DNA of 43,776 nt, taken from NCBI GenBank assembly GCA_012522955.1, contig JAAYJK010000116.1, forward strand, positions 1 through 43,776, in the 5' to 3' direction. The first letter of the stretch is position 1. Each line of letters begins with the position of its first letter. The DNA comes from Syntrophomonadaceae bacterium (GTDB lineage Bacteria; Bacillota; Syntrophomonadia; Syntrophomonadales; Syntrophomonadaceae). The notes beneath the pieces were generated by a model. The model was not told the origin of the DNA and did not search any database. It saw only the letters and a program-made list of their open reading frames with translations. Made by a program: the position numbers and the translations under genes. Shown here piece after piece: positions 6,048-34,621 of this stretch.

Positions 6048-7016
6048 TCAATTCTTTAACTTGCCGGCTGAAGCCAGCCCAGCTCCTATGCGTACTGCCT
6101 GCCGCAACAGATATCCACCTGCCAAAGCATATATAATTCCGGTTAATAAGGCCCACAGACCTTCTTCATTATCGAAATACTGATTGGGAGGAAGCAGATA
6201 ATCCCCTGAGCTTTCCCGGCTTTTATATATTAATCTGCTTCGGCCATCAGTAATAATACAATTGATGGGTGTTTTTTCTTGCATGGCCTCCACTTTTTCT
6301 TCGTAATACTCTACCGCTAACAAGTCCTTTACCCCCAGCACCACAGTATGGAATTCGGCCATTTTCGATGGGAGTTCCCCGGCTTCATTGATAATGTACA
6401 TGGTGCAAAGATGTGCGAATTCTTCTTTTTTACTTACCCGGCTTAAAACTTGATCACGGAAATAAGAATCTACTATCAGCCATTCACAGTTAAAAATAAT
6501 CCAGTCCCAAGTGTTAAGAACCTGACTATAGTCGGGAGAGTCAAAACCTTCTTCAATTATATCTTCATTGGGCAGTAAGATCCGGCGGCAGGTTCTTTTA
6601 TGAGAATGCCTATATATATGCATCGGATCCACCTTATTTTCCAGTAGTCTGTTTGTTATGGTAGTGCCGGGTTCATCGTTCCCAATCAGGCTGATAATCT
6701 TCAAGTTTACTCCGAAGTCTGCCAGTATTTGGCTGGCCACCAGCGGCAACCCTTTATAGTCCAAATTGATAATATTTTTTTCTTCCTGCTCTTCTATACT
6801 TATCTTTAAATAGCTAAGACCAATAACAACTATGGAGGCCTGTTCGTTAAACACATAGCCCTTGCCTAGGATAAATCCCTTTTTCATTAAATTGGATATG
6901 TGTACAGCAATAGAGGAGCGGCTGATGCCTAAATGCATGGCTAATTCATCCTGGGATATTAATGGATTTTTTTTTAATAACTCAATTATCTCCCTTTCCC
7001 GCCAAGTAAGCCTCAT
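6048..7016 (-). CDS. Winged-helix regulator fused to a degenerate PfkB-family kinase domain
   Basis: A 322-residue protein. Residues 1-60 form a winged helix-turn-helix (LTWREREIIELLKKNPLISQ, then DELAMHLGISRSSIAVHISN). The rest resembles the ribokinase/PfkB fold, with a recognisable ISLIGNDEPGTTITNRLLEN segment. Proteins with this layout include sugar or nucleoside kinases and regulators. The kinase signatures are worn: the substrate-binding Gly-Gly/Asn motif near the front reads GLPLVASQ, and the C-terminal DTxGAGD containing the catalytic Asp reads FDNEEGLWALL. Catalysis therefore looks unlikely, and a ligand-sensing regulator is a better guess. The start is the ATG at 7016, 8 bases from AAGGGG; the ATG at 7022 is too close. 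It lies between spoIIIE and the rodZ-like gene. Confidence 0.75.
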   Translation of the reverse strand: MRLTWREREIIELLKKNPLISQDELAMHLGISRSSIAVHISNLMKKGFILGKGYVFNEQASIVVIGLSYLKISIEEQEEKNIINLDYKGLPLVASQILADFGVNLKIISLIGNDEPGTTITNRLLENKVDPMHIYRHSHKRTCRRILLPNEDIIEEGFDSPDYSQVLNTWDWIIFNCEWLIVDSYFRDQVLSRVSKKEEFAHLCTMYIINEAGELPSKMAEFHTVVLGVKDLLAVEYYEEKVEAMQEKTPINCIITDGRSRLIYKSRESSGDYLLPPNQYFDNEEGLWALLTGIIYALAGGYLLRQAVRIGAGLASAGKLKN

Positions 7017-7057
7017 GTCCATATCCCCTTAAACAAAAATGCCCCCCTGAGTCCCGC

Positions 7058-9325
7058 CTAAGCATATCCATGCCTATTCTGCAGCATTTCCAATTGTTCT
7101 CTATTTATTAGTATTTCCCTTCTCTTATTATTATCCAGTTCCGATACTAAACCCCGGTCTTCCATCATATCCACCAATCTGGCGGCCCGTGAGTAACCGA
7201 TTCTTAGCCTTCTCTGCAAAAGGGATACTGAGGCTTTGCGGCTATCAACGAACACTCCTACAGCATCCCAAAAAAGGTCATCCCCATAATCATCTTCCGT
7301 CTGCTCCAGGGACATCTGCAGGTCTTCTGCTACTTTACTTTCACCGCTGCCTACAAACTGTTCCCGTATGTAATCTACCGTCTTCTCAATATCCTGGTCC
7401 GAAACATAGGCTCCTTGAACCCGGAAAGGCTTGGATGCTCCCACCGGCAAAAACAGCATGTCCCCTTTGCCCAACAGCTTCTCAGCCCCAGAGCTATCCA
7501 GTATGGTTCTGGAATCGGCATTAGAGGATACAGCAAATGCTATCCGGGAGGGTATGTTGGCTTTAATGGTACCGGTTACAACATCCACTGATGGACGCTG
7601 AGTAGCAACTATCAAGTGCATGCCGGCCGCACGGGCCATCTGGGCCAGACGGCAAATGGAATCCTCCACTTCAACCGGCGCTACCATCATCAAGTCTGCT
7701 AATTCATCAATTATTATGACGATAAAAGGCATCTTGTCCTGACTATCCTGATTGTAGCGATGAATGTCCCGCACTCCTAATTCTGCAAACTTCTGGTATC
7801 GTTTTTCCATTTCACTGGCCATCCATTTCAACACTACCGAAGCTTTCTTGGGATCAGTGACTACCGGAGTCATCAGGTGGGGTATGCCATTATACACGGT
7901 TAATTCCACCATTTTGGGATCAATAAACACCATTTTAAGTTCCTCTGGAAAGGAATTATAGAGCAGACTCATTATTATACAATTAAGGCATACACTCTTA
8001 CCAGAGCCAGTTGACCCGGCTATTAACAAATGAGGCATGTCATTTAAGCGAGCTGCTACTGTGTTCCCGCTTATATCCTCCCCCAGGGCAAAAGCCAGGG
8101 GGGTATTAAGACGAGCAAAGGCAGGAGAAGACAACAGCCTTCTCAGTCCAACACTCAGGATTTTGCGATTGGGAACTTCGATGCCTACTGCCGATTTGCC
8201 CGGTATCGGTGCTTCTATCCTTATACCTGGTGCGGCCAAGTTAAGCTGCAAATCATCGGTCAGGCTAATAATCTTGCTGATCTTAACTCCCGCTCCGGGT
8301 GACAGTTCATAACGGGTTACGGCAGGCCCGCAGCTTACCTGATTTACCTTTACCTGCACCCCGAAACTGGAAAAGGTATCCTCCAGTACTCCTATACTCT
8401 CTTCAATATTTTTCTTGTCTATTGTCCTTTCATTGCTTATATCACTGAGCATGTCCAGCGGAGGTATATGGTAATCACTGACCTCCTGCTCCGTTCCCTC
8501 CCCGGTGTTAGCCTTATTTCCAGAGACCTTTAATTGCGGCACCGGTTCTTTAACCTGGGGCTGATCCGCTGCTGGAATTGATGGAGCCGGCTCCACTCGG
8601 CTACTAAATAGATCAATCGGCTGCATCTCTTCCTGCACCGTATCTATAATTAGAGGAGTAGATTTTCTTGGGCTGGTAGGTGGAACCTTCTCCTCTTTAT
8701 CATCTTCAAACATTATTTTATTCAATTTGGCCCCCAGGCCCCGCACCCATCCAACCACTACTTTTACCAGCTCCTGGAGGGGACGATCTATTATCATTAC
8801 CAGTGAAATCACTATACCGAACACAATTATGATCTGAGTTCCAATTCGCCCCACCAGCTTGATTAAAATATATGCCAGTGCACCTCCCAGGTATCCGCCC
8901 CCCATACCTTTAAAGCCGGCTTCCCATTCACTTATTCCTTCTGGTATTTGATAAATGCTGATACTGAGCAGGATAAACAAGGATAAAAGGCTGACACCCC
9001 ACATCCGGATGGACCATAGTTTTTTCCAGACTCCGGTGTGAATGGACCAGAACAATAAAAATAGCGGTATTAAAAAGACACCCTGGCTAAAAGCCAGATC
9101 CAGCCCTTTTAGATAATAGCTGCCCAGTACTCCTATAAATTGATCATCATAGGGGATATCGCGAAACTTATAAATACTGACCCAGGAAAAGACAGATAAC
9201 ATCAAAAGAATTATTGATATTAACTCGATATGTAGTCCTTTCAGCTCCGCTACTTTTTTATTATTCACTTTTCTTTTTGTATTGTTTCCCGTTTTCTTGG
9301 GAGTGGGGGTTTTTTTTGCTGGCAT
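7058..9325 (-). CDS. spoIIIE: DNA translocase FtsK/SpoIIIE
   Basis: A hexameric ATP-driven DNA pump that moves chromosomes through the division or sporulation septum. The 755 residues show a basic N-terminus, several membrane helices (about 33-180), a variable linker rich in Pro and Glu (about 205-290), and the motor domain with Walker A GSTGSGKS (437-444) and Walker B FIVIIIDELADLMM. A C-terminal winged-helix gamma domain (VSLLQRRLRIGYSRAARLVD) recognises orienting DNA sequences. ATG start, with GGAG 5 bases upstream. Its position next to tepA-ylzJ and near the dipicolinate operon matches B. subtilis spoIIIE, so I use that symbol. It may serve both vegetative and sporulation roles. Confidence 0.93.
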   Translation of the reverse strand: MPAKKTPTPKKTGNNTKRKVNNKKVAELKGLHIELISIILLMLSVFSWVSIYKFRDIPYDDQFIGVLGSYYLKGLDLAFSQGVFLIPLFLLFWSIHTGVWKKLWSIRMWGVSLLSLFILLSISIYQIPEGISEWEAGFKGMGGGYLGGALAYILIKLVGRIGTQIIIVFGIVISLVMIIDRPLQELVKVVVGWVRGLGAKLNKIMFEDDKEEKVPPTSPRKSTPLIIDTVQEEMQPIDLFSSRVEPAPSIPAADQPQVKEPVPQLKVSGNKANTGEGTEQEVSDYHIPPLDMLSDISNERTIDKKNIEESIGVLEDTFSSFGVQVKVNQVSCGPAVTRYELSPGAGVKISKIISLTDDLQLNLAAPGIRIEAPIPGKSAVGIEVPNRKILSVGLRRLLSSPAFARLNTPLAFALGEDISGNTVAARLNDMPHLLIAGSTGSGKSVCLNCIIMSLLYNSFPEELKMVFIDPKMVELTVYNGIPHLMTPVVTDPKKASVVLKWMASEMEKRYQKFAELGVRDIHRYNQDSQDKMPFIVIIIDELADLMMVAPVEVEDSICRLAQMARAAGMHLIVATQRPSVDVVTGTIKANIPSRIAFAVSSNADSRTILDSSGAEKLLGKGDMLFLPVGASKPFRVQGAYVSDQDIEKTVDYIREQFVGSGESKVAEDLQMSLEQTEDDYGDDLFWDAVGVFVDSRKASVSLLQRRLRIGYSRAARLVDMMEDRGLVSELDNNKRREILINREQLEMLQNRHGYA

Positions 9326-9445
9326 AACGACTCCATAATCACATATTTTGGCCCATGAATATTGAGTAATTTAATCTGTGCAAATCCAGGGGCTTATTAC
9401 TACTTTCGCTTGGGAATAGGCAATTCCTGCAAGTCAAGGTCAAAT

Positions 9446-25276: not shown

Positions 25277-26194
25277 TTATTGCACCGCCGCCCCCACCAG
25301 ATCATGAATCTGGGCAAGACCCTGTTCCAATAGATATTTCTCCAAGCCCTGGGTGATCTCCTGGGCCAGGGACGGATTAACAAAATTTCCGGTGCCAATG
25401 GATATTGCACTGGCTCCTACCATTATAAATTCCAGAGCATCCCGGGTGTTACTGATTCCTCCTCCACCCAGTATGGGCAGGTTTACTTCTTTATAAACTT
25501 GATAAATCATGCGCAAAGCCACCGGTTTTATAGCCGGACCAGATAAGCCCCCAAACACATTGCCCAACACCGGCGTTTTTCTATCAATATCCACCGCCAT
25601 GCCCATCAGGGTATTAATCATGGATAAGGCATCAGCCCCTCCATCCCGAGCCGCTTTAGCAATACTGACGATGTCCGTTACATTAGGGGACAATTTGGGT
25701 ATTACCGGCAGCCTGGTTTCCTGCTTAACCGCCTCTACCACCTGTCTGACCAGCCTGGGGTCAGTACCAAACTGCATTCCTCCTTGTTTCACATTGGGGC
25801 AGGATATATTTAACTCAATGGCTGCTATTCCCGAGTGATTATCTATTATCCTGGTAATCAAAGCATATTCATCCACTGAGTTACCGGCTATGTTGGCTAC
25901 TATAGTTACTCCTTCCTCCATTAAAGCAGGCAGATACTCCTGCAAAAACACCTCTATCCCCGGATTCTCCAGGCCAATGGCATTAAGCATTCCGGCCGGG
26001 GTTTCGTATATCCGAGGCGGTGAGTTGCCACAGCGCGGCTCCAGGGTAGTCCCTTTAACTATAACCGCCCCAATTTTGCGTATATCTATGTAAGACTGGT
26101 ATTCGCGCCCATATCCGAAAGTCCCGGAAGCTACCGCCACCGGGTTCTGCATCTGCAAGCCTCCCAGATTCACTGACATATCAACAAGACCCAA
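25277..26194 (-). CDS. pyrD: Dihydroorotate dehydrogenase B, catalytic subunit
   Basis: This FMN enzyme oxidises dihydroorotate to orotate. The active-site loop [13 protein letters not shown] has the catalytic Cys, which marks class 1 enzymes, and the neighbouring pyrK gene makes this class 1B (NAD+-linked, PyrDB). FMN-phosphate binding is in [18 protein letters not shown]. Length is 305 residues. The TTG start has GGAGGG 7 bases upstream. The ATG at 26179 is too far from that site. Confidence 0.94.
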
Positions 26195-26426: not shown

Positions 26427-27206
26427 TCACGGTGCGATATTCACACTATCCAGGGGGAATACGGGGCCGTCGTGGCAAATCTTAACGTAGGACGGGTCGC
26501 TGGCTTTGAGTTTCCGAGCGCAACCCAAACAGGCTCCTACTCCACAGGCCATATATTCCTCCAAGGACAATTCCCCAGGCATATTGTTGCGGGCAGCAAA
26601 GGCGGCCACCGCTTCCATCATGGGTTCCGGACCGCAGGTATATATATAGTCGATGCTCTTGGGATCTATTTCCCGCTCCATAAGATCTGTGACCAGTCCC
26701 TTGAAACCCAGGCTCCCATCCATGGTGGCTATTCGATATTCCATCCCCAGACCGGTAAATTTGGGCCCGGAACAGGTCTCCTCCTTGCTTCCGGCACCAT
26801 GCAGGACTATTACTTTATTGTTCCTGACCTTCAATTCACGGCCCAAAAACAGCAGGGGAGCAATGCCTACTCCTCCTCCTACCAAGAGCACTCTTCGATC
26901 CTGGACCAAGCTGAATCCCTTACCTAAAGGACCCATAACATCAAGGGGCTGATCGCTGCTATATAGGCTTAAGATTTCGGTACCCCGTCCAACTACCTTA
27001 TACAGCAGAGTTATTAGACCGGCATCTACATCATAAATGCTTAAGGGACGCCGCAGCAAGGGGTCTTGGTTTCCACCCACCCGGATATGCACAAACTGCC
27101 CGGGTTGGGCCTCTCTGGCCAAGGCTAGGGCAGTAAATTCCATCTCCCACAGGTCTGGGCCTACCTTTTTATTACTCCTGACTATTCCTGAGCTGCAAGC
27201 AGGCAT
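26427..27206 (-). CDS. pyrK: Dihydroorotate dehydrogenase B, electron-transfer subunit
   Basis: PyrK passes electrons from PyrD to NAD+ through FAD and a [2Fe-2S] cluster. The FAD/NAD-binding parts include DPLLRRPLSIYDV and VLLVGGGVGIAPLLFLGREL. The cluster ligands are in ACGVGACLGCARK, with a fourth Cys in VKICHDGPVF. Length is 259 residues. ATG start with GGAGGT upstream. Normally pyrK and pyrD are close together; here a 232-base gap with repeats separates them. Confidence 0.94.
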   Translation of the reverse strand: MPACSSGIVRSNKKVGPDLWEMEFTALALAREAQPGQFVHIRVGGNQDPLLRRPLSIYDVDAGLITLLYKVVGRGTEILSLYSSDQPLDVMGPLGKGFSLVQDRRVLLVGGGVGIAPLLFLGRELKVRNNKVIVLHGAGSKEETCSGPKFTGLGMEYRIATMDGSLGFKGLVTDLMEREIDPKSIDYIYTCGPEPMMEAVAAFAARNNMPGELSLEEYMACGVGACLGCARKLKASDPSYVKICHDGPVFPLDSVNIAP

Positions 27207-27338: not shown

Positions 27339-30300
27339 TCAATTGGCTCCGGCCAGATATTCCTGTAAGGGTCTTATAGCTTCATTTTTGCTGCCGGTAG
27401 GTCCTCCGTTCCTCAATACTTCCTTTACTACCTTAAGAGTATCCAGTGAGGTAAGACAGTGAACATTCAACTCCACGGCGGCCCGACGTATCTGAAACCC
27501 ATCACTATAAGGCTTTCTTCCATGGGTCAGGGTATTGACTACAAAATCCACCTGGCCTTCCCGGATAAGATCAACGATATTAGGGGAACCTTCCTTGATT
27601 TTCTTTACTGTCTGCACCTTTACTCCCTTTTCCCTTAATGCCCGGGCCGTGCCTTCGGTAGCTATGATATTGAACCCCATATCGGCCAAGTCAGCCAATA
27701 GAGGTATGGCTTCTTCCTTATCTTTATCGGCGATAGTGGCTACTATACTGCCGGCCTCCGGTATTTCCAGCCCCGCAGCCAGCAAGCCCTTGTATATGGC
27801 ACTACCCAGGGAGTAATCAATTCCCATCACCTCACCGGTTGATTTCATTTCCGGCCCCAGGTTTATGTCTACCTGCTGCAGTTTGCTAAAGGAAAATACC
27901 GGCACTTTTACGGCATAATAACCTATTTCCGGATATAAACCGCCATCATAACCCAAATCCTTCAAAGTTTCCCCCAGCATTATCATAGTGGCCAGCTTCA
28001 CCATGGGTATACCGGTAACTTTGCTGACAAAAGGTATGGTTCGGCTGGAACGGGGATTAACCTCCAGCACATAGAGTTCATTCTCATGTTCTACGAATTG
28101 AATGTTGATCAAACCCCGTACCTCCAGTTCCAGGGCCAGTCGGGTGGTATAATTCACCACTTTATCTCGAATTTCAGGACAGATGTCGTGGGCCGGGAAT
28201 ACTGCAGTACTATCTCCAGAATGTACTCCAGCCCTCTCTATATGCTGCATAATGCCCGGTATCAATACTTCATGTCCATCGCAAACCGCATCCACTTCAA
28301 TTTCCTTACCCATTAAGTACTTGTCTACCAATACCGGATGATCTTTATTAACCTGGGCCGCTGTTTCCATGTATTGTCTCAGTTCATCAATATTATCAAC
28401 AATCTCCATGGCCCGGCCTCCCAGTACATAGGAAGGACGCACCAACACCGGATATCCTATGGCAGCCGCCGCTTTAACCGCCTCTTCTACCGAATATACA
28501 CTCTTGCCTGGAGGTCTGGGTATTCCCAGCTCCTCCACCATGGCGTCGAAGCGTTCCCGATCCTCGGCCCGGTCAATACTGTCATTGGAACTGCCCAAAA
28601 TATTGATTCCGGCTCGGCATAAGGGACCAGCCAGGTTAATAGCAGTTTGTCCGCCAAACTGTACTATGACTCCTTCCGGTTTTTCTTCCTCCAGAATATT
28701 CATAACATCTTCAAACACCAGGGGCTCAAAATAGAGACGGTCGGAAGTATCGAAGTCGGTGCTGACGGTTTCCGGATTGTTGTTAACTATGATAGCTTTA
28801 ATCCCTGCTTCCCGCAGTGCCCATACCGCATGCACCGAGCAATAATCGAATTCAACCCCTTGCCCAATGCGAATGGGGCCGGAACCAATAACCAATACTT
28901 TACGGACCGAGGGATCATGATCGGCCTCATTTTCTTGCTCATAACAAGAGTAAAAATATGGAGTACGAGCATCAAACTCCGCAGCACAGGTATCCACCTG
29001 TTTGTAGGTTGGTACTATCCCCTTCTCCCTCCGCATGCGTCGCACATCTTTTTCCTGGATTCCTTTCAGATTGGCTATTTCACTATCGGAAAAACCCATC
29101 TTCTTGGCCGCAGTCAAGTTTTCCGCATCCAGCACCTTATTTTTAAGGGCCAGGGCGAAATCAATTATATTCTTCAGCTTCTTTAAGAAATATTTATCGA
29201 TTTGAGTTATATCCCATACTTCATCTATAGTAAAGCCTCGGGCAAAAGCCGCAGCAATAATAAAAATCCGCTCATCATCCGCATAAAGCATCCGCTTTCT
29301 TAGGGCTTCATCACTTAAATTTTGTAATTCGGGCAAGAGCAAACCGTATAGGCCGATTTCCAGCGAACGGATGGATTTTAAGAAAGCAGCTTCAAAACTC
29401 CGATCAATTGCCATAACCTCCCCGGTAGCCTTCATCTGGGTTCCCAGTTTACGGTCGCCAAAAACGAATTTATCAAAAGGCCAACGGGGTACCTTTAAGA
29501 CTACATAGTCAATAGCTGGTTCAAAGCAGGCAGTAGTAGTTCCGGTCACGGTATTGGGTATTTCGTCCAGGGTATAGCCCAGGGCTATTTTGGTGGTGAC
29601 TCGGGCGATGGGATACCCGGTAGCTTTGGAAGCCAGAGCACTGGAACGGCTAACCCGAGGATTAACCTCGATAACATAGTATTTCTTACTAAAGGGATCC
29701 AGGGCAAACTGGACATTACAGCCTCCGGCTATTTTCAAAGCCCTTATTATCTTGATGGATGCTGATCTTAGCATCTGGTATTCTTCATCGGTCAGAGTCT
29801 GGGCAGGAGCTGCCACTATACTGTCCCCGGTGTGTATTCCTACCGGATCCAGGTTCTCCATGGAACAAATGGTAATACAGTTATTGTTTGCATCTCGCAT
29901 TACCTCAAACTCAATTTCTTTGTAGCCGGCTACACTTCTTTCGATCAAGGCCTGGTGAATGGGGCTGCTTTTAAGACCCCGATTTACTATGTTAATGAGT
30001 TCTTCTTCATTGATGCAGCTGCCTCCGCCGGTTCCTCCCAGGGTATAGGCAGGACGTACTATTAAGGGATATCCAATTTTATCAGCAAATGTAAGAGCCT
30101 CTGGTATAGAATGTACTATGGCACTCTCGGGTATGGGTTCATCTATTTCCTGCATGGTATCCTTGAACAACTCCCGGTCTTCAGCCCTATAAATGGCCTC
30201 CAGGGGCATGCCCAGAACGGGAACTCCTTTTTCCTCCAGTACGCCGGCTTTATCCAGAGCCAAAGCCATATTCAGCCCTATTTGTCCGCCCAGGTTAGCA

Positions 30301-30560
30301 ATTATCCCATCCGGTTTTTCTTTATCTAGAATTTTTATTACACTCTCCAAAGTTATGGGTTCCATGTAGACTGCATCAGCAATGTCAACGTCTGTCATAA
30401 TAGTGGCAGGATTGCTATTTAGCAGGACAACCCCAATCCCCTCCTCTTTAATGGCTCGACAAGCCTGAGTTCCCGCATAATCAAATTCCGCCGCCTGTCC
30501 GATAATAATCGGACCAGAGCCAATTACCAGCACTTTTTTCAAATTCTTGTCCAGGGGCAT
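27339..30560 (-). CDS. carB: Carbamoyl-phosphate synthase large subunit
   Basis: CarB makes carbamoyl phosphate from bicarbonate, ammonia and two ATP, using two homologous ATP-grasp halves. Visible are [20 protein letters not shown] for the first half, [20 protein letters not shown] for the second, ATP-grasp stretches such as [11 protein letters not shown] and [10 protein letters not shown], and a C-terminal MGS-like allosteric domain ([20 protein letters not shown]). Length is 1073 residues, the family norm, with the motifs intact. The ATG at 30560 has GGAGGGAG upstream. An ATG at 30575 overlaps that site and is rejected. Its partner CarA has lost its glutaminase residues, so this subunit probably receives free ammonia. 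Confidence 0.95.
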
Positions 30561-30593
30561 TAAGACTCCCTCCATTTATCCATATTTTAAGAC

Positions 30594-31658
30594 TTAAAGC
30601 ATATTCACGAAATCATCATAGAAAAATCCAGTTTCACTGTAGCCCAAAAACCCCTCCGGATCGAACTGAACCGAAAAGGCTAGATACTGTAGGTGTCTAA
30701 TGCCTTCAATGCTGTGGTCATTCAGACTGCGCAGCGTTACCTCCAAAGCCAAATCTCCGATAGAATCCTGATCAATGGCAAAACCATGATTCTGAGTAGT
30801 AATATATACCCTTCCATTGCTTAAATCCTTTACCGGATGATTGCTTCCTCGATGCCCATAATCTAAGCGGATGGCTTTTGCCCCCATGGCCAGGGCCAGG
30901 ATCTGGTGACCCAGCCCTATACCAAATAAAGGTATCTGGCCCAGCAAATTACGGCAGCTATCTATAGCATAGACTAGCGCCTGAGGATCACCTGGCCCAT
31001 CAGATATTAAGACCCCATCGGGACCCAAGGCCATTATTTCTGAGGCGCTAATAGTGGCCGGTACTGCTATAACCTGGCATCCCCGCTCCATTAAAGAATT
31101 TATTACTCCTCTTTTGGTACCCAGGTCCACCAGGACGATTTTTTTATCCCCCTGCCCAAAGTTCATAATATTTTTACGCGTCACACACTTTACCATATCA
31201 CCGCTTAGATCCCGGGCCTCTTTTTTGGCCTTTTGAATCAAGCGGTCCATATTGTTCAGTTGATCGGTAATAATGCCTCCCATGGTGCCGTTTTTCCTCA
31301 GTTCCCTCGTCAAGGCTCGGGTATCGACCTCAGTTAACACCGGTATTTCGCTCTTGTTGAGGAAAGTGATCAAATCGGTTTCCATTTCATAGTGGCTGGG
31401 GAAATCCGTTGCTTCTCGCAGGATAAGGCCTTTGATCATAGCCGAACGGGAAGCGAAACTTCTTTGATTCAAGCCTACATTTCCAACCAGAGGATAGGTC
31501 ATAACCACAATCTGACCATAGTAGGAGGGATCGGTAATGATGTCCTGGTAACTAATCATAGCGGTACTGAATACTACTTCTCCTCCCGCCATACGACAAT
31601 CGTTTAATAGCCAACCGGGGAAAACTCGGCCATTTTCCAGAACCAGGTATCCTTTCAT
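30594..31658 (-). CDS. carA: Carbamoyl-phosphate synthase small subunit, glutaminase site lost
   Basis: CarA normally hydrolyses glutamine and passes ammonia to CarB. The overall family is clear: N-terminal CarA domain (ENGRVFPGWLLNDCRMAGGE, VDTRALTRELRKNGTMGGI) and class I amidotransferase fold with LISDGPGDP and QNHGFAID. Two catalytic residues are replaced. The nucleophile in the usual GICLGHQ is Gly (FGIGLGHQ, residue 248, GGG at 30915-30917). The His of the usual HPE is Asp (QFDPEG, residue 333, GAT at 30660-30662). The Glu (335) remains. The frame is intact at 354 residues, from ATG 31658, 9 bases after GGAGG. It probably supports an ammonia-dependent synthase, as in animal CPS I. It sits between pyrC and carB. 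Confidence 0.93.
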   Translation of the reverse strand: MKGYLVLENGRVFPGWLLNDCRMAGGEVVFSTAMISYQDIITDPSYYGQIVVMTYPLVGNVGLNQRSFASRSAMIKGLILREATDFPSHYEMETDLITFLNKSEIPVLTEVDTRALTRELRKNGTMGGIITDQLNNMDRLIQKAKKEARDLSGDMVKCVTRKNIMNFGQGDKKIVLVDLGTKRGVINSLMERGCQVIAVPATISASEIMALGPDGVLISDGPGDPQALVYAIDSCRNLLGQIPLFGIGLGHQILALAMGAKAIRLDYGHRGSNHPVKDLSNGRVYITTQNHGFAIDQDSIGDLALEVTLRSLNDHSIEGIRHLQYLAFSVQFDPEGFLGYSETGFFYDDFVNML

Positions 31659-31672
31659 GAATGGTGTCCTCC

Positions 31673-32959
31673 TTATACTATGCTGCCCTCCCGGGCCACA
31701 ATTTTTCCATTTACTATAGTAATATAAGGCCAACCTGTTAAGATCTGGCCCTTAAAAGGGGTATTTTTACCCTTGGACTGGAATTTTTCCGGCTCCACCT
31801 TACGAACTGCTGCCGGATCAATAATAGTCAAATCAGCCCTAGCTCCTATGTTCAGGGTTCCGCCATCCAGGCCCAAAATATCAGCCGGTCCGCAGCTAAA
31901 CAGTCTTACCATATCATAAACATCTAGCTGCCCCTCTTGTACTAATCGATCCATTATCACCGCTACTGCGGTTTCTAGTCCAGAAATACCCATGGCCGCC
32001 AGTTGAAACTCGCAGTCCTTGGCTTCCCGGTGGTGGGGTGCATGATCGGTGGCAATACAGTCAATGGTTCCGTCCTGCAATGCTTCAATTAAAGCCTGGA
32101 TATGCTCAGCTGAACGCAGGGGAGGGTTGACTTTGGCGTCGCTATCATAATCTCCCAGTATTTCATCGCTTAGGGTTAGATGGTGGGGAGTGACTTCACA
32201 GCTTACGTTGACTCCCCTTGCCCGGGCCTGCCTTACCAACTCCAGGGAATCTTTAGTTGAAAGATGGCAAATATGAATGTGTCCACCGGTTAACTCTGCC
32301 AGCCTTATATCCCGAGCCACCATCAGCTCTTCAGCCGCAGCCGGTATGCCCTTTAAACCATAAATGGTAGAAAAATAACCCTCATGCATCTGACCGTCCT
32401 GGGAAAGCTCCATATCTTCACAATGAGAAAGTACGGGAATACCAAACATTTTGGTATATTCCAGGGCATTACGCATAACATTGGCCTTTACCACTGGCTT
32501 GCCATCATCAGAGATAGCCACGCAGCCCGCTGCCAATAGGTCAGCTACCTCGCTCAATTCCTGTCCGGCCTGGCCTTTGCTGATGGTTCCTATGGGATAA
32601 ACCCTTACCAGACCTGCTTTCTCTGCCTTTTCTCGAATAAATCGGACCACCGGAGCGCTATCCACCACCGGTTGAGTATTGGGCATACAGCAGACTGCGG
32701 TAAAACCTCCAACAGCGGCAGCCCGGGTTCCAGTAACAATATCCTCTTTGTATTCAAAACCTGGTTCTCTCAGATGAACATGCATATCTATAAATCCTGG
32801 ACACACTAACATATTCCGGGCATCAATCACTTCTGCCCCGGTCTGATCTATATCAATGCCAATCTGACTTATGATCCCATCCTCAATCAGCAGATCCATA
32901 ATCTGATCTAAATCGTTATCTGGGTCAATAACTCGTCCACCTTTAACCAGCAATCTCAT
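31673..32959 (-). CDS. pyrC: Dihydroorotase
   Basis: A zinc amidohydrolase that closes carbamoyl aspartate to dihydroorotate. The metal motif is DMHVHLREPGFEYKED and later metal or active-site stretches are CHLSTKDSLELV, CEVTPHHL and CIATDHAPHHREAK. Length is 428 residues, the Bacillus type. ATG start with GGGGGATC upstream. It overlaps the end of pyrB by 17 bases and is followed 14 bases later by carA, so the operon is tightly coupled. Confidence 0.95.
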   Translation of the reverse strand: MRLLVKGGRVIDPDNDLDQIMDLLIEDGIISQIGIDIDQTGAEVIDARNMLVCPGFIDMHVHLREPGFEYKEDIVTGTRAAAVGGFTAVCCMPNTQPVVDSAPVVRFIREKAEKAGLVRVYPIGTISKGQAGQELSEVADLLAAGCVAISDDGKPVVKANVMRNALEYTKMFGIPVLSHCEDMELSQDGQMHEGYFSTIYGLKGIPAAAEELMVARDIRLAELTGGHIHICHLSTKDSLELVRQARARGVNVSCEVTPHHLTLSDEILGDYDSDAKVNPPLRSAEHIQALIEALQDGTIDCIATDHAPHHREAKDCEFQLAAMGISGLETAVAVIMDRLVQEGQLDVYDMVRLFSCGPADILGLDGGTLNIGARADLTIIDPAAVRKVEPEKFQSKGKNTPFKGQILTGWPYITIVNGKIVAREGSIV

Positions 32960-33881
32960 CTTTTGATCCCCCCATCATTAAGAACAGCAAGGCCATCCTT
33001 ACCGCAACACCATTGGTAACCTGTTCATTAATCACTGAATGAGACCCTTCCGCTACTTCACTGGATATTTCCACTCCCCGGTTCATGGGTCCCGGATGGA
33101 GTACCAGCACATCCTCTTTGGCATATTTTAAGTGCCGGTTGCTCAGCATATACATATTGGCATATTCATCCAGGGAGGGGAATAAACCCGCTTCCTGCCG
33201 TTCTCTTTGAATTCTCAACACATTGATAACATCAACGTCCCGCAAGGCCTGCTCCATGCTATAATAGGCTTTTACCCCCATCCTTTCCACTTCCGGAGGT
33301 ATCAAGGTAGAAGGCCCTACCACTCTAATCTCGCAGCCAAATTTACTTAATCCGTATATATTAGAACGGGCTACCCGACTATGAAGTATATCGCCCACAA
33401 TAGCCACCTTTAATCCTTCCAGGGTTCCTTTGCTCTCCCGAATGCTGTACATATCCAACAGAGCCTGAGTAGGATGCTCGTGCTGACCATCCCCGGCATT
33501 AATTACACTCATACTGGTATTCCGGGCTACATATTGGGGAGTTCCGCTCATGGAGTGCCTCATTACCATAAGATCAAATCCCATCACTTCTATGGTCTTG
33601 ATGGTATCCCGCAGGCTTTCCCCCTTCTGTACGCTGCTGCTAGAAATGGCCAGGTTTACCGTATCAGCACTCAGATATTTGCCGGCAATTTCAAAGGAAG
33701 TACGGGTGCGGGTGCTATTCTCATAAAAAACTGTAACCATGGCTTTGCCCCTTAGAGTAGGGACCTTTTTAATATCTCGTTTAATGACATCCTTCATAGG
33801 AATCGCCGTGTCCAAAATCAATTGGATTTCTTCCCGGCTGAGTTCTCGCATTCCCAGCAAATCTTTCCGATTAAATTTCAC
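32943..33881 (-). CDS. pyrB: Aspartate carbamoyltransferase catalytic subunit
   Basis: PyrB joins carbamoyl phosphate and aspartate, the committed step of pyrimidine synthesis. Carbamoyl-phosphate binding is seen in FYENSTRTRTSFE and GDGQHEHPTQALLD, and the aspartate end in VLHPGPMNRGVEI. Length is 312 residues. I choose the GTG at 33881, 7 bases after AGGAGG. A TTG at 33887 is one base from that site. No pyrI regulatory gene is present, so control is at the level of PyrR attenuation, as in Bacillus. Confidence 0.95.
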   Translation of the reverse strand: MKFNRKDLLGMRELSREEIQLILDTAIPMKDVIKRDIKKVPTLRGKAMVTVFYENSTRTRTSFEIAGKYLSADTVNLAISSSSVQKGESLRDTIKTIEVMGFDLMVMRHSMSGTPQYVARNTSMSVINAGDGQHEHPTQALLDMYSIRESKGTLEGLKVAIVGDILHSRVARSNIYGLSKFGCEIRVVGPSTLIPPEVERMGVKAYYSMEQALRDVDVINVLRIQRERQEAGLFPSLDEYANMYMLSNRHLKYAKEDVLVLHPGPMNRGVEISSEVAEGSHSVINEQVTNGVAVRMALLFLMMGGSKDEIAG

Positions 33882-33956
33882 CGCCAAGCCTCCTCTGTTT
33901 TTTGGGGGGTGAGATTTTCACTACCCAATCTAAGTAACGTAGATCAGCAGGGACAT

Positions 33957-34051: not shown

Positions 34052-34621
<570 letters not shown>

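Follow-up and report, generated by a model that had tools for sequence, protein, structure and literature searches.

A carbamoyl-phosphate synthase (CPS) small subunit encoded in the pyrimidine (pyr) operon of a Syntrophomonadaceae bacterium, here called CarA1, has lost both the nucleophilic Cys and the catalytic His of its glutaminase site. CarA1 is likely to be a selected, glutaminase-dead small subunit of a pyr CarAB that depends on ammonia, with a second and intact subunit, CarA2, serving under ammonium shortage. The gene lies in a window of 43,776 nucleotides, which is the whole stretch of DNA that was analysed. In Escherichia coli CarA, Cys269 and His353 are described as essential for glutamine hydrolysis, and every bacterial CPSase is said to draw its nitrogen physiologically from glutamine (PMC6245113). 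All CPS types use glutamine with the exception of CPS1, and the human enzyme, carrying a Ser in place of the Cys, uses only ammonia (PMC4655335). A literature search, from which subscription journals were mostly out of reach, found no report of a Cys-less bacterial CarA.

The pyr-operon CarA and its altered active site

The window shows the gene order pyrR-pyrB-pyrC-carA-carB-pyrK-pyrD, which is conserved in relatives. The features are listed below, with the residue numbers of E. coli CarA assigned through alignment to PDB 1c30/1a9x; fractions refer to sequences of the Syntrophomonadaceae clade and to canonical CarA rows, respectively.

34052..34606, minus strand: pyrR, pyrimidine operon regulator (ORF, operon order in relatives)
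32943..33887, minus strand: pyrB, aspartate carbamoyltransferase, consumer of carbamoyl phosphate (ORF, operon order in relatives)
31673..32959, minus strand: pyrC, dihydroorotase (ORF in the pyr operon order, conserved in relatives)
30594..31658, minus strand: carA1, CPS small subunit lacking the catalytic Cys and the catalytic His (ORF and translation, TIGR01368, PF00988 and PF00117, AlphaFold model)
31560..31562, minus strand: codon 33, Ala at E. coli Ser35 (Ala 33/33; Gly, Ser or Ala in canonical rows)
31551..31553, minus strand: codon 36, Ser replacing Gly, E. coli G38 (Ser 32/33; Gly 92/92)
30999..31001, minus strand: codon 220, Asp replacing Asn, E. coli N240, the residue before Gly241 (Asp 33/33; Asn 93/93)
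30915..30917, minus strand: codon 248 GGG, Gly replacing the nucleophile Cys, E. coli C269, motif GIGLGHQ (Gly 33/33; Cys 93/93)
30660..30662, minus strand: codon 333 GAT, Asp replacing the catalytic His, E. coli H353, motif FDPEG (Asp 32/33 and Ala 1/33; His 93/93)
30639..30641, minus strand: codon 340, Tyr replacing Pro, E. coli P360, which adjoins the tunnel residue Gly359 (Tyr 32/33; Pro 93/93)
27339..30575, minus strand: carB1, large (synthase) subunit, ordinary (full length, NF003671, 1557-1572 bits, with 1572 for NF003671)
26427..27206, minus strand: pyrK (ORF, operon order in relatives)
25277..26194, minus strand: pyrD (ORF, operon order in relatives)

The carA1 frame runs on the minus strand from an ATG at 31658 to a stop at 30594 and encodes 354 aa. 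Its product contains both CarA Pfam domains and scores 400.9 bits against TIGR01368, above the cut-off of 307.35. Translation confirmed the GGG and GAT codons, and with them the GIGLGHQ and DPE motifs, from which a sequence-only reading had started. That reading had also described the frame as full length with its other motifs intact: the length stands, but the point on the motifs needs some correction, as N220D, P340Y and G36S are fixed as well. The third residue of the triad, Glu355 in E. coli, is retained in the alignment to E. coli CarA, so that Gly, Asp and Glu stand where a glutaminase has Cys, His and Glu; the nucleophile of the class I amidotransferase motif GxCxGxQ (PF00117) is likewise missing throughout the clade.

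With regard to the whole protein, CarA1 resembles E. coli CarA (PDB 1jdb/1c30) in domain order, fold, length, carB partner, Glu355 and most of the glutamine-contacting residues, and differs from it by the changes C269G, H353D, N240D, P360Y, G38S and S35A. The AlphaFold model was poor when built with 15 clade sequences alone (pLDDT 63) and good with 50 sequences (pLDDT 90, pTM 0.89). Its best PDB match is E. coli CarA (TM 0.93) and it also superimposes on human CPS1 (TM 0.89); CarA1 is thus predicted to fold still as a CarA. Several changes fall near the active site and the tunnel when placed by alignment. Ser35 is a position of the ammonia tunnel in the small subunit; Huang and Raushel reportedly found in 2000 that engineered bulk at Ser35 and Gly359 blocks or breaches that tunnel. 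Judged from its residues, the CarA1 glutaminase would be unable to work by the known mechanism.

Hydrolysis of glutamine might nevertheless proceed with a relocated nucleophile, for example Cys21 or Asp333. Residue 21 of CarA1 (codon 31598-31596) is in fact a Cys in 33/33 clade sequences and is not conserved in canonical CarA, but its counterpart in the alignment is E. coli Thr23, a residue of the N-terminal domain and not of the amidotransferase domain, and no class I amidotransferase is known to work with a nucleophile relocated in this way, which makes the idea very hard to credit.

Somewhat less improbable, and still unlikely, is that CarA1 senses nitrogen by binding glutamine, or some other ligand, and gates the synthase, with ammonia arriving from solution or from CarA2. 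The amidotransferase fold is retained and its domain strongly conserved, and the positions Ser47, Gly241, Gly243, Leu270, Gln273, Asn311 and Gly313 (E. coli numbering), which contact glutamine, are all kept in the alignment of the window CarA1, so glutamine could still bind as an effector. Against a sensor speak the changes in the Cys-His-Asn240-Pro360 set and the example of human CPS1, which keeps its dead domain with no known glutamine role (PMC4655335). Moreover, even a sensor would imply ammonia dependence wherever CarA1 stands alone.

The partner gene carB1 lies 18 bp downstream of carA1, as a separate gene, and is the same neighbour in relatives. Comparison with 57 canonical CarB showed no change of catalytic residues; together with the full length and the profile scores, this agrees with the earlier impression of a normal carB.

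The likeness to animal CPS I that had been proposed is one of presumed function and not of membership. Human CPS1 (PDB 5dot) also retains a small-subunit-like domain without the catalytic Cys, and ammonia would be the donor in both, whereas CarA1 belongs to a two-subunit bacterial enzyme of separate origin, encoded in a pyr operon, with an anabolic role and with the His lost as well. The Cys is replaced by Gly in CarA1 and by Ser (Ser294) in human CPS1 (PMC4655335), and the small and large parts form one fused chain in animal CPS I but are two genes, carA1 and carB1, here. On its sequence, CarA1 is best classed as a CarA that fails the defining catalytic feature of its family, CPS I-like without being a CPS I. 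The same position has been altered in the engineered E. coli mutants C269S (1c30) and C269G, from which CarA1 differs in being natural, family-wide and accompanied by further fixed changes. Mutants of C269 are said, from the work of Rubino and colleagues in 1986, to lose the use of glutamine and to keep that of ammonia. A further parallel is the carbamate-kinase-like CPS of Pyrococcus, where an anaerobe makes carbamoyl phosphate from ammonia, as the CarA1 system would; the folds are unrelated, since the CarA1 system uses an ATP-grasp CarB.

Conservation within the family and independent cases outside it

The alignment of orthologues proposed by the sequence-only reading bore out the Gly/Asp pair. 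Among 33 distinct full-length pyr-operon CarA sequences from Syntrophomonadaceae, 64-87% identical to the window CarA1, Gly takes the place of Cys in all and Asp that of His in 32, the remaining one having Ala; such conservation is far beyond chance. A sequencing error or assembly artefact could be suspected in a window that comes from an assembly of 137 contigs, but 33 distinct sequences drawn from many assemblies agree in the Gly, and all but one of them in the Asp, which refutes this explanation and leaves it a negligible probability.

In a tree computed with the trait columns omitted and 18 of the 33 clade sequences included, the CarA1 sequences occupy one side of a branch (SH-aLRT 100) with a long stem of 0.59, beside the canonical CarA of the same order. 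At five positions where 92-93 canonical rows show no variation, the clade has settled on another residue: N220D, P340Y and G36S in addition to C248G and H333D. Furthermore, carA1 is under purifying selection, with a dN/dS of 0.04-0.12 among congeners, similar to that of the canonical carA2. A member of another family of the same order (G041, family f2) has a pyr operon with a canonical CarA (locus L262; sequence L039), which indicates that the Gly/Asp state is derived in Syntrophomonadaceae. The glutaminase-dead CarA is a trait that defines a clade. The claim that selection and not error explains the two residues is accordingly upheld by the family-wide conservation, the purifying selection and the species, described below, in which CarA1 is the only CarA.

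Outside the clade, Gly in place of Cys was found in L092, L099, L100, L102, L127, L139, L144, L174 and L189. The CarA tree requires several independent changes from Cys to Gly, and such CarA have therefore arisen independently of the Syntrophomonadaceae clade. Since L127, L139 and L144 were recovered with a Gly-specific pattern, only the remaining six cases bear on the statement that the replacement is always Gly. A broad DNA pattern for Gly in place of Cys across the phylum returned mainly Obg GTPases and chance frames, with new CarA in 3/30 loci examined.

Some of these cases are worth describing individually. Pyr operons harbour a Cys-to-Gly CarA with GHE in Pelotomaculum sp. UBA5255 (L174, 9001-10062) and with GQE in Oceanobacillus rekensis (L189, 9001-10053). 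In an order-mate (G040), a CarA that has Gly at the Cys position and HPQ in place of HPE is encoded within an arginine operon, argC-J-B-D-carA-F (L092, 5204-6292), and an intact carA is present on another contig. Both CarA of G051 are without Cys (L099, GVGLGHQ/HPN; L100, GIGVGHQ/HPE), and AmtB was not found in that genome.

Carbamoyl phosphate synthesis with and without CarA2

Two single-contig genomes (G007, G025) and five near-complete ones (G016, G022, G026, G027, G031) encode CarA1 and one CarB, and an intact CarA was not found in any of the seven. Ornithine carbamoyltransferase (OTC) is kept in 7/7. Stretches of the pyr operon were examined for all but G031; those of G007, G025, G016, G022 and G026 include pyrB, and the one from G027 ended before it. 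Carbamoyl phosphate is thus needed in these organisms and, in the absence of any other CarA, CarA1 must belong to the synthase that makes it. With the triad lost and no other CarA in these relatives, we infer that ammonia is the nitrogen donor. A general loss of glutamine use was rejected as an explanation because other class I amidotransferase genes persist in the CarA1-only genomes, including frames of GuaA and PyrG length.

The window genome itself has a second carA, carA2 (GICLGHQ, HPE; C129:16268-17317). Genes for PII (PF00543) and AmtB (PF00909) come directly after it, and close to this operon are nadE, glnA and the genes of an ANTAR regulator and a class-II amidotransferase. As a side observation, the positions within locus L112 of contig G000:C129 are as follows.

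8242-9348, minus strand: carA2
7766-8113, minus strand: PII gene
6308-7714, minus strand: amtB

A second intact carA had been named in the sequence-only reading as something that would refute ammonia use. Such a gene exists, but that reading survives it, because no intact carA at all is present in related genomes that have one CarB and because carA2 belongs to a PII-AmtB nitrogen operon. The probable ammonia dependence of pyr CarAB that had been suggested is well supported by conservation, purifying selection and the CarA1-only species. CarA2 might alternatively pair with CarB1 and supply glutamine dependence, CarA1 being a relic and neutral baggage; intact CarA2 in the window genome and 19 other family genomes would suit this idea, which is disfavoured by the low dN/dS of carA1 and by the several near-complete genomes that have CarA1, lack CarA2 and need carbamoyl phosphate, and it appears highly improbable.

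The order carA2-PII-amtB recurs in many family relatives, and G013 and G014 have carA-carB-PII-amtB. Across the family, amtB accompanies an intact carA in 20/20 genomes and occurs in 0/16 genomes without one (Fisher p about 1e-10), a count from which G018 (80% complete; amtB, no carA found) was excluded. Pairs within one genus agree (g2, g6, g9, g10, g13, g17) and, the two genes being physically linked, the co-occurrence partly reflects one event of gain or loss. Four genomes that are 99-100% complete (G028, G034, G015, G005) combine both CarA with a single CarB. The window genome has in addition a divergent carB2 on contig C113, and with carA2 and carB2 both present, glutamine could reach its CarB1 by way of CarA2. 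The idea that carA2 works only with carB2 is unsupported, given that carB2 is unlinked to carA2 and its presence does not track that of carA2. Pyr operons of the order pyrR-pyrB-pyrC-carB-pyrK-pyrD, without carA, occur in G009 (L265) and G040 (L261), where an intact carA is found elsewhere in the genome. The lack of a glutaminase next to the pyr CarB therefore takes two forms: a dead CarA in the clade, and no CarA in the operons of G009 and G040.

Some genomes (G037, G039, G020, G045) gave no CarA match at all, and the one CPS large subunit recovered from them is carB2, which is 46% identical to carB1; these may possess a CarA-less, ammonia-dependent CPS. Besides G020 and G045, the divergent CarB2 of such genomes was located as follows.

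8018-11248 of L263: CarB2 of G037
6351-9566 of L264: CarB2 of G039

The leaders of carA2, of the PII gene and of the ANTAR gene contain an A1-G4 hexaloop hairpin (e.g. ggcAAAGGCgcc) followed by a terminator-like T run. A strict scan, with a background of 1.3% of random 240-mers, detected hairpin and terminator in 9/18 carA2, 6/15 PII and 6/7 ANTAR-gene leaders, and in 0/14 carA1 and 0/12 pyrR leaders; in some of the leaders that the scan missed, the motif is visible on inspection but has a G-U pair or a T run of reduced length. A promoter-like AAGTATACAGTATA block precedes the hairpin and terminator in carA2, PII and ANTAR-gene leaders of L042-L048, L050, L112 and L167. An ANTAR target comprises a pair of stem-loops, each with an A1/G4 hexaloop, of which the second overlaps a terminator (PMC8164766), and the carA2 leader hairpin fits one stem of such a target. 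No first stem was recognised ahead of carA2, and comparison with Rfam returned nothing for the window or for the carA2 loci and leaders, so that ANTAR-type antitermination of carA2, although probable, is to be taken as a lead.

A proposed route for nitrogen and its meaning

In the proposed mechanism, CarA1 presumably docks on CarB1 and supports its structure and the ammonia path. CarA1 would be unable to form the glutamyl thioester, and on this ground pyr CarAB is proposed to use free NH3, together with bicarbonate and ATP, for making carbamoyl phosphate. CarA1-CarB would be the only CPS of many Syntrophomonadaceae, feeding both pyrimidines and arginine. In cells able to scavenge ammonium, that is those with AmtB, the glutaminase CarA2 is encoded together with PII and AmtB and probably pairs with CarB under ammonium shortage. 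Swapping of small subunits on a single CarB could then act as a nitrogen-status switch, with CarA1-CarB fed by ammonia as the default and CarA2 fed by glutamine under PII/AmtB/ANTAR control; this further step is advanced tentatively, its chances being put at slightly under even.

Such a switch, if true, would mirror in bacteria, in reversible form, the transition by which CPS I evolved from CPS III, and the CarA1/CarA2 system offers it in a testable form. CarA1 would also represent a natural second case of lost glutamine use beside animal CPS I, raising the questions of why a dead domain is kept and where ammonia enters. Annotation is affected too, since databases label CarA1 proteins as 'glutamine-hydrolyzing' (TIGR01368). 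If the reading of CarA1 as a glutaminase-dead subunit is true, the Syntrophomonadaceae, bacteria of the methane food chain, would break the rule stated in reviews that bacterial CPS is fed by glutamine, CarA1 belonging to the sole CPS in some species, and metabolic models of syntrophic fatty-acid degraders would have to count, per carbamoyl phosphate, one less glutamine and a direct need for ammonium.
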